From the NCBI RefSeq assembly GCF_000730285.1, contig NZ_CP007174.1:310001-374000 (forward strand): DNA of 64,000 nt, read 5' to 3'. Below the pieces are notes generated by a model. It ran no database searches and was not told where the DNA came from. It worked only from the letters and a program-made list of their open reading frames with translations. This document shows positions 11,937 through 17,465 of this stretch, one piece after another (position 1 is the first letter of the stretch; each line of letters begins with the position of its first letter). The position numbers were made by a program, and so were the translations under genes. This stretch comes from Candidatus Nitrososphaera evergladensis SR1. Lineage in GTDB: Archaea; Thermoproteota; Nitrososphaeria; Nitrososphaerales; Nitrososphaeraceae.

Positions 11937-12380
11937 TCAGTTATGAAGCAACTGATGCAGAGTAGAGTTGTTCTCGACTTGCAATTCTGCCTCTTCACGC
12001 CAATCATCCACGTAAATTACAGCAAGATGATGCGCGACTTCTTCTCTTGTATGATCCATCATTAGGTGTCGACGCATACTTTCTGATGCATACGTGCGAT
12101 TGCATATGTAACACAATGGATGCTTGAGGTCAAGGGTGGTGGATTTGGCTTGATGTCTGTCCAGCACTTTGTTAATTCTTGACGCAACGATTTCTGCGCT
12201 ATCGCCCAGCATCTCTTCCAGATAATTTGTAAATTCTCCTCTGTATCTGACAAGAGTGTTCAGATCCATCCCATACCTGTCTTGGATGTAATTTAGAATC
12301 ACGTTTCTTGATTCGGTTCCAACAATTGCCAACGCTTTCTCTATGGCATCCAAGGTTATGCTATGGCTGTCAGAGGACAT
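11937..12380 (-). CDS. KaiC-island protein: shared helical module plus C2H2-type zinc finger
   Basis: 147 residues. Residues about 8-72 form a helical module (AIEKALAIVGTESRNVILNY, then EFTNYLEEMLGDSAEIVASR) that also occurs at the start of the protein at 15047-15670 and, more distantly, at the end of the MEDS protein at 15801-16595. It is like the small output-type domains (NitrOD) proposed for archaeal KaiC signalling systems. Residues about 88-108 form a C2H2 zinc finger (Cys-x2-Cys-x11-His-x4-His: CYICNRTYASESMRRHLMMDH without its last residue is the visible core). It is probably a signalling or DNA-binding partner in the island. Zinc fingers of this type are uncommon in archaea. Confidence 0.75.
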   Translation of the reverse strand: MSSDSHSITLDAIEKALAIVGTESRNVILNYIQDRYGMDLNTLVRYRGEFTNYLEEMLGDSAEIVASRINKVLDRHQAKSTTLDLKHPLCYICNRTYASESMRRHLMMDHTREEVAHHLAVIYVDDWREEAELQVENNSTLHQLLHN

Positions 12381-12535
12381 GTGTTCAAAAAATAAAGTTT
12401 CTAATATAAGTATTTTGATGAGGTACGCAACTCTAATTGATTATAGTTTACTTTGTTTTCAAATGATGAAAAAATGTGAAGTTTATTCTAGGTAATATAG
12501 TAGTGTGTTTGTCTTTGGATGGTGTCCTTTTCTCC

Positions 12536-14110
12536 TTATCTTATGAACGCGTTGCAAATAGTCGCAATAGCCTCTACCTCATTTCGAGGATGTGCATTCT
12601 CATTGATCAATACAATTATTCTCGAATTTGGATACGGTGAAACTTCATCAGACACACTTTGGATAAGTGAAAATACCTTTGCAAATCCAAGCTTATGAAT
12701 TAATTCTGTAATATTGTCCAAAACTATTACAGAATTTGGATTTTCCCGTAAGGTGCGTTTGATGGCTTCCAAGATTAGTGACGTCTGGTTGATTGATATG
12801 ACTAAAAGCCCATCTGCTGATGTTGTAATTGGATCTTGCGATGACGATGACAGGACATAAATTGTTGCACCCGCGTTGCGCCCAAGCGAATACAGATTGC
12901 TGGTCCTCTTCGTTATCAGCACGAGATTGGTTTTTTTATCTCTGGCAGAGGATTCTGATGATGGCGACGATGACGATGTTGTTCTTAATGATGTTGATGA
13001 TGAGGATGGCGATGATGAGGCGTCGCCGGTAGCTGTCGTAAGGTAGTAATCAAGCAGAGAATCGGCTACTGTTCTTATCCTTGTCTGTTGTTGATTATCT
13101 TCGGATGCATGCTGTCTCTCCATTAATTCTTTGTATTGGCTGAAATGCAGTAGTATCATTGGTCCTTTCTGCAATAGGTCTCCAACTTGCTCCTCAAGCT
13201 CTTCGGGTACAAGATTGTCATTATTATTGTTGTCACTATTGTTCCTACCAGTCTGAATTAATGCAGAGGGAGTTGATTCACTAGTTTTTTCTTTCTGCAC
13301 GTTGTTGGTCGAGATTGTAGTAGCTAGCTTTGACGAGTCGTCATTGCCTCTTCCTTTGCCGCCAATGCCTTTTGAAATAAACATCTCGATCTTCTTTCTT
13401 GCTTCCCTCTGCAATTCGTCGACCGAAGGAGCAAGCCTTTTGGAGATGAGAAAAGCTGCTGCAACTGCAAAGGCGATGGATGAGGCAGACGTAATAACTG
13501 CAAATGTATACGCTTGCTTGGCAACTGACTGAGATTCATCAAACATTATGGATGCCAAGTTGTTGTTCAGGTCTACAATTTTGTTGTAGCTTGTTGCCAG
13601 CTTTGAGAACCTGTCTGCGGCAACTGTATTGGAATACGCCGTTGCGTTCTCTCTCGATCCTTCGTTGGTTAAAGTGATGACCATGTTTCTCGCTTGCTGA
13701 TATTCTAGCCAGTCGTCATTAACCTGAGTAAGCAGCGAATCCTCATACGAGGTCATGTTGCTCAGCCCTCGACGTTGAAGTATGTCTATTTGCAATGGAA
13801 AGTCATCTATCTCTTTGTATCCTATTAGGGTCCTTAGAAAATTGCCTTCGTTCTGCTCTATTTGCTTTAAAATGCCTTGTTTCTGTTGATCGTCAGTGGC
13901 AGAGATAAGACGGCCCACGTTTAGCCTCATTTCTATCAGATCTTTGTGACCATCCGATAGATTGCTGATAATAGTCACGGTTCCAAGGTAAATGTTGGAT
14001 ATACTTTGCTCCAGTCTTGAAAGAGAAAAGAACGATATCGCAGATAGAAGCGAAGCTGGAATTACCGAAATTATTACGAATGACAAGACAAGCAACGCCC
14101 TAGTCTGCAT
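12536..14110 (-). CDS. Membrane sensor with four-helix-bundle domain and C-terminal DUF835-like domain
   Basis: 524 residues from an ATG at 14110 that directly precedes the first membrane helix (ALLVLSFVIISVIPASLLSA). An extracytoplasmic region of about 170 residues, helical and like the 4HB_MCP sensor fold, is followed by a second helix (FAVITSASSIAFAVAAAFLI) and a juxtamembrane coiled segment. Then come Asn- and Ser-rich linkers and a C-terminal alpha/beta domain (ILLHFSQYKELM; NSVIVLDNITELIHKLGF; SRIIVLINE) that resembles DUF835. There is no kinase or methyl-accepting region, so signal output is probably by protein contact. The gene is divergent from the KaiC-like gene with 89 bases between the starts, suggesting shared control. 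Confidence 0.8.
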   Translation of the reverse strand: MQTRALLVLSFVIISVIPASLLSAISFFSLSRLEQSISNIYLGTVTIISNLSDGHKDLIEMRLNVGRLISATDDQQKQGILKQIEQNEGNFLRTLIGYKEIDDFPLQIDILQRRGLSNMTSYEDSLLTQVNDDWLEYQQARNMVITLTNEGSRENATAYSNTVAADRFSKLATSYNKIVDLNNNLASIMFDESQSVAKQAYTFAVITSASSIAFAVAAAFLISKRLAPSVDELQREARKKIEMFISKGIGGKGRGNDDSSKLATTISTNNVQKEKTSESTPSALIQTGRNNSDNNNNDNLVPEELEEQVGDLLQKGPMILLHFSQYKELMERQHASEDNQQQTRIRTVADSLLDYYLTTATGDASSSPSSSSTSLRTTSSSSPSSESSARDKKTNLVLITKRTSNLYSLGRNAGATIYVLSSSSQDPITTSADGLLVISINQTSLILEAIKRTLRENPNSVIVLDNITELIHKLGFAKVFSLIQSVSDEVSPYPNSRIIVLINENAHPRNEVEAIATICNAFIR

Positions 14111-14199
14111 TGAAAATGTACTTGCTTGGCTTCGACACTTCCGACTAAAAAGTGCTTGTTTTAGGGCACATATTGCGCCTAAAATAAGAGAGTATAAAA

Positions 14200-14931
14200 A
14201 TGCCTTACAAACCGATAATGGTGGGGTACATATTGTCAAACTCTGCAGCGTTGGCCAAAACTTGGATCCCCGGATTTGATAGTTTGATAGGGGGTGGATT
14301 TCCCCGCTCAAGCTTTATCATACTTGCGGGTCATCCTGGGACCGGCAAGTCTACTTTTGCAATACAATTCTTGTTAAATGGCGCTATGAATGCAAAGGAG
14401 CCGGGTGTTTACGCCTCATTTCTTGAGCGTGAAGAAATTTTTATGCGCAACATGTCAAAGAGCTATGGCTTTGACATCAAAAAATCTATCGAAGAAAATA
14501 CCCTCCGTTTTCTAGAATTCACGCCCCTAGCATCAGAAGCAGTATCGGATACTCTGAATAAAATTGTCAAGACAGTTATGGAAACTGGCGCCAAGAGGCT
14601 GGTAATAGATTCGCTGAATGCGCTCTTTGGTGATGTGCCTCCTACGGAACAGAGAAGGATCCTAGAGATCGTATTAAACAGGATAATAAAAGACCAAGGG
14701 TGTACAGTCATCGCCATACTGGAGCAGAGCATAGGCAAAACCGAGATTGGCTTTGGAATTGAGGAATTTGTCGCAGATGGCTTAATTGTCTTTGAGTCTT
14801 ACATTGAAGGCTACGAGGCAAAGAAAAGAGCAATAATCAGAAAGCTGCGCGGGACCCAGCATAGTTCTAGGTATCAGGCCATTCTCTTGAATCCGAGAGA
14901 AGGGATCTCATTTCTACAGTTGGCCGGATAG
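14200..14931 (+). CDS. KaiC-like RecA-fold ATPase
   Basis: 243 residues, a single KaiC domain. Walker A is GHPGTGKST (near residue 47), preceded by the classic PGFDSLIGGGFPRSS. The catalytic Glu pair appears at ASFLEREEIF and Walker B is RLVIDSLNAL. The KaiC/RadA C-terminal hairpin (VADGLIVFE, then RKLRGTQHSSRYQ) is present. Single-domain KaiC proteins in archaea are proposed hubs of signal transduction, switching partners by ATP state and autophosphorylation. It lies in an island with a DUF835 sensor, a MEDS protein and module-bearing small proteins. ATG 14200 is used; 14218 is an alternative. Confidence 0.93.
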   Translation: MPYKPIMVGYILSNSAALAKTWIPGFDSLIGGGFPRSSFIILAGHPGTGKSTFAIQFLLNGAMNAKEPGVYASFLEREEIFMRNMSKSYGFDIKKSIEENTLRFLEFTPLASEAVSDTLNKIVKTVMETGAKRLVIDSLNALFGDVPPTEQRRILEIVLNRIIKDQGCTVIAILEQSIGKTEIGFGIEEFVADGLIVFESYIEGYEAKKRAIIRKLRGTQHSSRYQAILLNPREGISFLQLAG

Positions 14932-14968
14932 AGCGACACAAAAGTTTGTTAGTATTTGTACCAGTATT

Positions 14969-14986
14969 TGTGTGCATATGCACACA
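14969..14986. repeat. 18-bp perfect palindrome of alternating bases
   Basis: TGTGTGCATATGCACACA is an exact palindrome made entirely of alternating purine and pyrimidine. It is followed at 15000-15046 by more GT/CA-rich alternation. It sits between the convergent stops of the KaiC-like gene and the protein at 15047-15670. It could be a terminator hairpin for both genes or a Z-DNA-prone site. Confidence 0.5.
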
Positions 14987-15046
14987 GGTCTAGGTGTTCA
15001 TGTGTGTGTGTTGTGAAGTATGCGTATGCATGCACAGACGTGCACA

Positions 15047-15670
15047 CTACTGTGGCTTTACTACCTGCTGCTTATTGATGCCGACTTCACGGAATGACAG
15101 CGAAATTCCACGCTTTTCGTCAACTTCAACTAGGAATTTTTCATTACTCATAACTGGTACGGTAGAAACTATCTTGCTTCCGCATGACAGGCATTTTGGT
15201 TCATGACACTCTCGAAGAACCGATGCACACCAGAAGCAGCTATCGCAGATTAGGAAATGCACGACATCTGTTATTCTTTTCCTTTCATATCCCGCTGGCT
15301 TGCCGGAAACAGATCTTTTTTGTTCTTGTAAGACAGTAGTGTTGGTATTTTTGTTATGGTTATGGTTATGGTTATGATGGCCGTTGCCATTGGTATTGTT
15401 ATTACAATTGTCGTTGTAGCGGTTGTTGTTATTATTTCTGGATTCGTACAGTGTCGCATCAATCTTCGAAATTATTATTTCGGCGCTGTCCCCAATTGTC
15501 TCGCGCAGATAATTTTCAAATTCATCTTTATAATCTACAATTAGCTTCGTGTTCATGCCGTATCTGACATTCAAGTAATCGAGAATAACTTGCTTTGATC
15601 CTTTTCCTATCAGTTCAAGAGCTGATTCAATAACGTGTAGGATGTGAGAATTGTCGTAGTCCTGGGGCAT
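15047..15670 (-). CDS. KaiC-island protein: shared helical module plus zinc-ribbon domain
   Basis: 207 residues. Residues about 8-75 hold the same helical module as the protein at 11937-12380 (VIESALELIGKGSKQVILDY, then EFENYLRETIGDSAEIIISK). A low-complexity Asn/His linker follows (NGNGHHNHNHNHNKN), encoded by a GTT/ATG microsatellite. Then comes a zinc ribbon with FLICDSCFWCASVL and CLSCGSK, and a C-terminal strand-rich tail. The zinc part is paralogous to the small protein at 17259-17465. This looks like a two-part adaptor: module plus metal-binding reader. It is convergent with the KaiC-like gene. Confidence 0.75.
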   Translation of the reverse strand: MPQDYDNSHILHVIESALELIGKGSKQVILDYLNVRYGMNTKLIVDYKDEFENYLRETIGDSAEIIISKIDATLYESRNNNNNRYNDNCNNNTNGNGHHNHNHNHNKNTNTTVLQEQKRSVSGKPAGYERKRITDVVHFLICDSCFWCASVLRECHEPKCLSCGSKIVSTVPVMSNEKFLVEVDEKRGISLSFREVGINKQQVVKPQ

Positions 15671-15800
15671 TGCACGCCATTATTTTAATTTACCATATTT
15701 AAAGATCATGTGTACAACCGCAACAAACGAAATCGTCATAAGGCGTAATGATCGTGAACATTTATAAGCTCTCAGAGATAGTTGCAATGCAATTATTCTC

Positions 15801-16595
15801 ATGCTACGTGAAACGCACTCTTTATGTCTGCTTCAGCAAACCGAGTATGCTTACCTCTATGACATAATTGGCAGATACCTTTCGAATGGATATGCGGTGA
15901 TTTATGCCGCTGAACCTAATACTGATAAAGTGCTGGAAAGGATGGCTCGAGCAGGAATTGACGTTGAACAATATTTTGAAAATGGCATGTTAAAAGTAAT
16001 GTCATTAGATTCGGTCTATATCTCTGACCATGAAAAGAACTTATCTGTGTCGCAAACACTGGAGTCGTGGCACAATATTATCTCACGAACAATGGATGAG
16101 ACAAAGGCTAAGGGCATTCTGGCAATAGGCAGTACAGACGCCTTCATCCAAGATGGTCAGGAAGAACACGTCAAAGAATATGAAGACAGTATTGGCAAAA
16201 GACCTCGATCTCTTACTGAAGCGGTATGTTGCTACGATACAGACTCTTTTTCTGATACGTCTGTAAGCACTCTAATCGCCATCCTAAATGCCCATGAATA
16301 TACCATTCATTACGGTGCGCAATATGCGGAATGGAAGGAAGACAAATTGCAGAGCGTATTGGCCTCTGCCTTCAATAAGGTTCTTGGCTCTACAACTTCT
16401 GATCTAATGCTAAAGACTCTAAAGTCAGTTTACAAGATAGATGAAAAAACAATCCTTTCTGATCCAGAAGTTTTAGAAAGTGCTGTAGCCAAGTTCTTCA
16501 AAGATTCTTCGCCTGCCATCTTGGCAGCTGTGTTAAAAGATTTAAAGACCGAAATAGCATTTCGCCGTCAAGTACCTGCCGTGTCAGCAAGCTAA
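15801..16595 (+). CDS. MEDS-domain sensor protein with C-terminal helical module
   Basis: 264 residues. The N-terminal 190 residues read as a MEDS domain (methanogen/methylotroph DcmR sensory), a degenerate KaiC/RecA-like fold: HSLCLLQQTEYAYLYDIIGR, YAVIYAAEPNTDKVLERM, GILAIGSTDAFI. There is no Walker A. The last 70 residues (LGSTTSDLMLKTLKSVYKID, then FFKDSSPAILAAVLKDLK) resemble the helical module found in the two other island proteins. It probably binds a small ligand or a KaiC partner and passes the state on. Divergent from the gene at 15047-15670, with 130 bases between the starts. Confidence 0.75.
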   Translation: MLRETHSLCLLQQTEYAYLYDIIGRYLSNGYAVIYAAEPNTDKVLERMARAGIDVEQYFENGMLKVMSLDSVYISDHEKNLSVSQTLESWHNIISRTMDETKAKGILAIGSTDAFIQDGQEEHVKEYEDSIGKRPRSLTEAVCCYDTDSFSDTSVSTLIAILNAHEYTIHYGAQYAEWKEDKLQSVLASAFNKVLGSTTSDLMLKTLKSVYKIDEKTILSDPEVLESAVAKFFKDSSPAILAAVLKDLKTEIAFRRQVPAVSAS

Positions 16596-16781
16596 CAAAA
16601 TAAGCACGACGCGCGACTCCTGTCATAAGAGTGAGGGACTATCCCAGTAGCGCTTCTTTGAGACCCACATATGCTCGCACACACACAAATACAAGCAGGT
16701 TCGCTCCGTGTATTTGTGAGAGAGATATGCTGACGGTCTAAAATTAGACCGCGGTGATTATGATGGCAATAATAAGAATGT

Positions 16782-17014
16782 GCCAACTGGCTTTCGAGGA
16801 CATGTGGCTTTCCCTTCGAGACTACCTTCAAGGGTCCCAGCGGCCCCGTGGTTTGCCCCTGCAAAATACATTCGGACTATCCTCATACCCTTGCGGGCAG
16901 CGGATTACCTTTTCCAGCGTCTTGCAGGCACTGCTTTTTAACCTAGGCTCAGCAGGCCTTTACCTGCTGCGCGGCGCCGAACAGTGCATCTGTCTTCTTT
17001 TTCGGCCAGTTGGC
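16782..17014 (-). ncRNA. Candidate structured RNA
   Basis: The ends GCCAACTGGC and GCCAGTTGGC are perfect complements 213 bases apart and would close the whole structure. Inside, CAGCAGG/CCTGCTG (about 16950-16970) forms a 7-bp hairpin, and CCCTT/AAGGG (about 16812-16833) and GAATGT/ACATTC type pairings are possible on the minus strand. The minus strand also reads GAGGATAGTCCG near 16875-16886, reminiscent of RNase P conserved region I, but the other RNase P conserved blocks are not found in the right order. Strand is uncertain. It could also be only a fossil sequence. Confidence 0.3.
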
Positions 17015-17151
17015 TACGTGTCTTTTACAAAAATTAGCCTTAAGGCTTTCTGTCACTATCTTTAGTTTTAATGAAATATTGGACGTAAGCTTGGTCCCTT
17101 CATGATTCTTCGTGTACTATCTTATATGATATTTTGACCGTATTTGCTGGA

Positions 17152-17181
17152 ACATATGCGCATACGCACACGCGCATATGT
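17152..17181. repeat. 10-bp inverted repeat inside an alternating purine-pyrimidine tract
   Basis: ACATATGCGC (17152-17161) and GCGCATATGT (17172-17181) are exact complements around a 10-base loop. The tract from 17153 to 17189 alternates purine and pyrimidine almost without a break, which favours Z-DNA or cruciform extrusion. It lies 80 bases beyond the stop of the zinc-ribbon gene at 17259-17465, so it may end that transcript. Confidence 0.5.
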
Positions 17182-17258
17182 GTATATGCTTTTGAGATGT
17201 ACTGTAGAGAGAGAGGATATGTGGGCTCGTCAAGAAACTTGGTCTAGCCGCAGAGAGC

Positions 17259-17465
17259 TTAATGAAGAGCAGCGGGTGCACTAGTACCGTTATCCAGTTT
17301 GACTGGGATGCAACTTACCTGAGTGTTTTTGCAAACAGGACAGGCATCTGGCTTCCAATTCGCAATGTCAGAAGCGGCCCAGAAGCATGACGGACAGAGC
17401 AAGAAATTCAACATCCTAGACTGTGACCGTCGAATACCTGGTAGATGAAGTTGAGTAGCTTCCAC
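17259..17465 (-). CDS. Small zinc-ribbon protein related to the 15047-15670 protein
   Basis: 68 residues. The motif FLLCPSCFWAASD followed by CPVCKNT repeats the zinc-ribbon part of the protein at 15047-15670 (FLICDSCFWCAS...CLSCG), down to the unusual SCFWxAS. The N-terminus is short and basic, without the helical module. It may therefore be a free-standing version of the metal-binding part, possibly competing or pairing with the longer protein. Start at 17465 chosen as the longest ATG frame; MLNFLLCPS is a later option. Confidence 0.6.
   Translation of the reverse strand: MEATQLHLPGIRRSQSRMLNFLLCPSCFWAASDIANWKPDACPVCKNTQVSCIPVKLDNGTSAPAALH

Follow-up and report, generated by a model that had tools for sequence, protein, structure and literature searches.

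Archaeal signalling hubs centred on KaiC have been proposed from gene neighbourhoods, and a gene island in Candidatus Nitrososphaera evergladensis SR1 raises the question of which proteins might read the state of such an ATPase and what they would do with it. This soil ammonia-oxidising archaeon, from a family of ammonia oxidisers, carries in one compact set a sensor, an ATPase and zinc-headed outputs that can be tested together. The island lies in the window, the 64,000-nucleotide stretch analysed here (G000:C1:310001-374000), within a genome that is a single contig of 2.954 Mb. All open reading frames were recovered where an earlier note on this DNA had placed them, in the order C2H2 protein (minus strand), receptor (minus), KaiC (plus), module/zinc ribbon protein (minus) and MEDS-module protein (plus). 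TATA-like sequences were seen by eye approximately 20-35 bases upstream of the starts of the C2H2, ribbon and KaiC genes (taking 14218 for the last) and approximately 40 bases upstream of the MEDS gene. As several genes appear to have TATA-like sequences of their own, the island would not be one operon, and its genes are probably separate, partly leaderless transcripts.

A membrane receptor divergent from a single-domain KaiC

The receptor gene (12536..14110, minus strand) encodes a membrane protein with 4HB_MCP_1 (Pfam, 5e-18) and DUF835 (8e-11) domains. Hydropathy and Pfam matches give a layout of a transmembrane helix at residues ~1-31, an extracytoplasmic 4HB_MCP_1 domain, a second transmembrane helix at ~200-223, a low-complexity linker and a cytosolic DUF835 domain at residues 395-515. 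The protein resembles MCP chemoreceptors in holding a 4HB_MCP_1 ligand bundle between two transmembrane helices, and differs from them in carrying DUF835 in place of the MCP signalling domain, no MCPsignal domain being found by Pfam. Published work classes DUF835 as an inactivated KaiC-like ATPase. In hhalign comparisons with shallow alignments (4-15 sequences) no relation of DUF835 was detected to KaiC (0.4%) or to MEDS, so its kinship with KaiC rests on the literature.

Divergent from the receptor is a KaiC-like ATPase (14200..14931, plus strand; PF06745, 2e-47, 161.7 bits against a cut-off of 26.6), whose best PDB matches are KaiC; the pairing of a four-helix-bundle DUF835 receptor with a single-domain KaiC, as the earlier note had described it, thus stands. 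The gap between the two genes is 89 bp as annotated, and since TATAAAA occupies 14193-14199, the true start of KaiC is probably a leaderless ATG at 14218. The protein is 243 residues long, consists of one domain and stops at the end of the CI domain; neither a second domain nor a C-terminal phosphorylation tail was found in the alignment. Walker A (GHPGTGKST, residue 44) and Walker B (LVIDS, residue 134) are present, and the K-[LM]-RG-[TS] motif is conserved as KLRGT. Where cyanobacterial KaiC has its pair of catalytic glutamates (FEE), all five clade members have leucine in place of the first one, and hydrolysis of ATP may therefore be weak. From the conserved motifs, the leucine replacement and the CI-only length, we infer that this KaiC acts as an assembly switch dependent on ATP, not as a clock with autokinase activity.

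One helical module on zinc-binding and MEDS proteins

Three further proteins of the island each contain a helical module, joined to a different partner as the earlier note had read. The C2H2 protein (11937..12380, minus strand), identified from its sequence and from a collinear orthologue described below, has the module at residues 10-74 (12159..12353, minus) and one C2H2-like finger, C-x2-C-x11-H-x4-H, that falls below Pfam cut-offs. In the zinc ribbon protein (15047..15670, minus) the module spans residues 11-75 (15446..15640, minus) and the ribbon cysteines residues 142-163 (15182..15247, minus). The third protein (15801..16595, plus) has a MEDS domain at residues 16-158 (PF14417, 7e-18), followed by the module at residues 183-249 (16347..16547, plus). 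It also has a weak Pfam match to KaiC (2e-4), a fold search with its low-confidence model returned mostly KaiC/RecA-type ATPases, and hhalign of MEDS against KaiC gave a weak 16% (4-15 sequences).

CxxC...CxxC zinc ribbons that match no Pfam family are found both in the module/ribbon protein and in a fourth protein (17259..17465, minus strand), which is a zinc ribbon alone, as had been claimed. Its proposed place in the island did not hold. The ribbon, C-x2-CFWCAS...CxxCG, has approximately 15 copies in the genome and several in most other Nitrososphaera genomes, mostly stand-alone, and in a congener the nearest zinc ribbon lies on the opposite side of the island. As one of these dispersed copies, the stand-alone ribbon is outside the island and is not counted as a member. 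The two proteins of the genome that combine module and zinc domain are both in the island and are possible tandem duplicates; the modules give too short a tree for the C2H2 duplication to be placed.

Pfam and NCBIfam assign no family to the modules, the best Pfam matches being below gathering cut-offs (0.0077 to NitrOD5, from a member of A1; 0.18 to NitrOD2, from the MEDS protein's module in the window), and profile-profile comparison was therefore needed. Two sets were built: A1, with the modules of the C2H2 and zinc ribbon proteins from the window and their congener copies (10 sequences), and A2, with the C-terminal modules of MEDS proteins and their stand-alone relatives (8 sequences). Comparison with hhalign matched A1 to A2 over the full length at 96.8% (E 2.3e-10), with controls reaching at most 3.6% for column-shuffled profiles (60 shuffles per comparison) and 0.2% for reversed ones. 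Independent scans of whole genomes with the A2 profile alone recovered the window ribbon protein (2.8e-5) and the C2H2 protein (9.6e-4), together with one NitrOD2 and one NitrOD5 protein of the same genome. A NitrOD5-type set (A5) matched A1 at 96.2% and A2 at 93.5% over the whole domain. The relatedness of the three helical regions, on which the earlier note had staked its proposal, is borne out by these comparisons.

Galperin and colleagues placed NitrOD2, NitrOD4 and NitrOD5 in an archaeal Death-domain-like family (PMC5847659), and from these profile matches the shared module is assigned as a divergent member of the NitrOD2/NitrOD5 Death-like superfamily. The window modules match by profile the same helical domain as the NitrOD2 (PF18550) and NitrOD5 (PF11537) output domains of that study; they differ in missing the Pfam cut-offs and in having zinc or MEDS domains as partners rather than REC. 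The comparison of the modules with the NitrOD2 set (A-D) was weak, at 11.6%, possibly because two response-regulator fusions are included in that set. Ten NitrOD2 proteins above cut-off were found in the genome, of which two lie in longer frames that also encode a receiver domain, and this total equals the published count for N. evergladensis of 8 stand-alone NitrOD2 and 2 NitrOD2-REC proteins (PMC5847659).

AlphaFold2 models from shallow alignments predict the ribbon and MEDS modules to be helical with the same pattern, over residues 5-83 of the ribbon protein and 180-253 of the MEDS protein (local pLDDT ~75-86). A sequence search of the PDB with A1 and A2 gave no significant match. In a fold search the model of the ribbon protein had 2P9X (PH0832) as its top PDB match, at an E-value of 0.99 and probability of 0.57 that alone are not significant; the sequence of PH0832 matches the NitrOD5 profile at 1.7e-7. 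PH0832 is a probable solved relative of the module, and its structure could be used for modelling.

Gene linkage in the genus and the family

Synteny, the other point on which the earlier note had said its proposal could fall, is kept in two other Nitrososphaera. The five genes are collinear in G040, with identities of 81% for KaiC, 57% for the C2H2 protein, 56% for the MEDS protein, 52% for the receptor and 48% for the ribbon protein. G028 retains four of the five, namely the receptor, KaiC, module/ribbon and MEDS genes, and in both genomes the ribbon orthologue adjoins KaiC. The C2H2 protein is common to only two genomes. Among the 18 Nitrososphaera genomes, KaiC of the window type was found in only 3; outside them it was found in G023 and G024, which belong to another genus. 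DUF835 above cut-off occurs, within Nitrososphaera, in exactly the same three. The receptor is linked to this KaiC in all five genomes that have it, and is divergent from it in G040, G028, G023 and G024 as well.

The divergent receptor-KaiC pair lies on short contigs in G023 and G024, and there it was found without modules. An ammonium-transporter gene lies near the pair in both genomes, and G023 has a PII gene there as well; these neighbours hint that the pair may respond to a nitrogen-related cue in that genus. A weakly Cas4-like gene adjoins the same pair in G024 and G023 (L057 and L058, respectively). A divergent ribbon-module/MEDS-module pair without KaiC occurs in G026 and G041, which have no window-type KaiC, and at a second locus of G040. 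The KaiC-linked and KaiC-free MEDS proteins form separate, well-supported clades, with support of 99/98 for the KaiC-linked clade. The KaiC-free module/MEDS loci (L059-L062) share a conserved gene of 125-137 codons, with the motif YRDLCDELLxLDxI... and without a confident Pfam match, whose product appears Roadblock-like by eye; two of the four also contain a stand-alone module gene and a response regulator.

The association of KaiC with NitrOD-type genes extends to most canonical KaiC loci examined in the family. Neighbourhoods of KaiC loci from a whole-genome search were scanned with the module profiles, disregarding NitrOD2-profile matches to REC proteins; the NitrOD5 profile includes a member from G009 that stems from a scanned locus and was found by its Pfam model, not by position. 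Of the 15 canonical KaiC loci examined, 13 have a NitrOD-type gene within 2 kb (window type, 3/5; single-domain type in archaellum-like loci, 3/3; two-domain KaiC, 7/7), as against only 2 of 17 divergent KaiC-like loci; as this grouping was made after the data were seen and the loci lack phylogenetic independence, the Fisher value is descriptive only. The NitrOD-type gene follows the two-domain KaiC in the same direction in all seven cases. KaiB was not found in any of the 18 genomes of the genus, that of the window included, by a search whose control was positive in Synechococcus. At L119 and L123 genes for a receiver-domain protein and a NitrOD5-type protein come after a KaiC-like gene, and this arrangement may connect KaiC signalling to two-component systems.

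A candidate signal relay and its alternatives

The earlier note had proposed one KaiC hub surrounded by its own set of module-bearing readers. The hub itself gains further support from the NitrOD-type genes beside most canonical KaiC genes, the lack of a detectable KaiB and the co-occurrence of receptor and KaiC. The idea of a single hub with dedicated readers finds no support in that form, given the module pairs without KaiC, whose MEDS proteins group in a supported clade apart, the receptor-KaiC pairs without modules on the short contigs of G023 and G024, the restriction of the C2H2 protein to two genomes and the place of the stand-alone ribbon outside the island. As each pair is found without the other, the island joins two separable units and is not one obligate system; it is best seen as a receptor-KaiC pair joined to a MEDS/zinc adaptor pair that shares a KaiC-associated module.

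We put the probability that the island is a KaiC-centred signal relay, with NitrOD-type modules reading the state of KaiC, at about one half. In such a relay the chemoreceptor-type four-helix bundle would sense an external cue and the receptor would present it inside the cell through DUF835. The single-domain KaiC probably forms rings, whose state would change with binding and hydrolysis of ATP, and the modules would be the docking parts that read it. The MEDS domain with its module may serve as a second ligand sensor, one that is cytosolic and of KaiC-like descent, and the zinc-binding heads on the other two modules would deliver the output, in all likelihood transcriptional or some other event at nucleic acids. 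A broader form of this proposal, which we put forward tentatively, makes the NitrOD module the general archaeal partner of KaiC, in the position that KaiB has in cyanobacteria. Grafted in this island onto zinc-binding and MEDS heads, it would let a membrane chemoreceptor control transcription by way of a KaiC ring and its nucleotide state, with no need of kinases or two-component proteins. With a NitrOD-type gene beside 13 of 15 canonical KaiC loci, the question of KaiC's partner becomes directly testable.

The same separability could mean that two independent systems are merely neighbours, a receptor-KaiC pathway and a ribbon-module/MEDS-module pathway in which the modules pair homotypically and the ligand state of MEDS controls the zinc protein. 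The KaiC-free pairs of G026, G041 and G040:C10, which lie beside the small conserved gene and in G026 and G041 also adjoin a response regulator, speak in its favour, as do the module-free pairs of G023 and G024. This is a possible reading that we nevertheless doubt, since both pairs are adjacent in all three Nitrososphaera genomes with window-type KaiC, the MEDS proteins linked to KaiC make up a clade of their own and KaiC genes in general have NitrOD-type neighbours. It is less plausible still that the zinc proteins are small transcription factors of an ordinary kind, with a module that serves only for dimerisation, and that local duplication (the C2H2 gene from a ribbon copy) brought them close to KaiC. 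The dispersal of the ribbon, and the presence here of both module/zinc proteins of the genome as potential tandem duplicates, would fit such an origin; however, independent KaiC lineages have NitrOD neighbours without zinc domains, so that it is the module, not the zinc head, that tracks KaiC. A circadian-type oscillator like that of cyanobacterial Kai, suggested by KaiC homology, is very improbable and was rejected, because this KaiC is a single domain of 243 residues, not two in tandem with CII phosphorylation sites, and lacks the CII tail, and KaiB was found in 0 of the 18 genomes of the genus.

The island can be seen as a new variation on the KaiC signalling scheme predicted for archaea, and it offers a conserved, clear-cut case of a design that has until now been mostly a prediction. 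Like the hubs of KaiC-like ATPases proposed by Makarova, Galperin and Koonin (2017), as they are described in PMC5847659, it links KaiC, inactivated KaiC-like domains (DUF835, MEDS) and Death-like helical domains; relative to that description, it differs in the fusion of the Death-like module to zinc-binding heads and MEDS, and in having a chemoreceptor-type membrane protein as the DUF835 partner. A pair of KaiC (arCOG01174) and a DEATH-like helical protein (arCOG03758) has also been reported from archaeal type IV pilus loci (PMC4858521). The island likewise has a KaiC gene near Death-like helical genes, but it is outside a pilus locus, and its modules belong to subfamilies of their own. Probably of the same type as the pilus-locus pair are a KaiC and a NitrOD5 gene at 1938140-1939375 of this genome, in an archaellum-like locus (L103:7739-11463; G000:C1:1935738-1939462) that contains FlaH-like, FlaJ-like, NitrOD5 and second KaiC genes. 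The KaiC/NitrOD5/KaiC arrangement of this locus recurs in G042 and G029.
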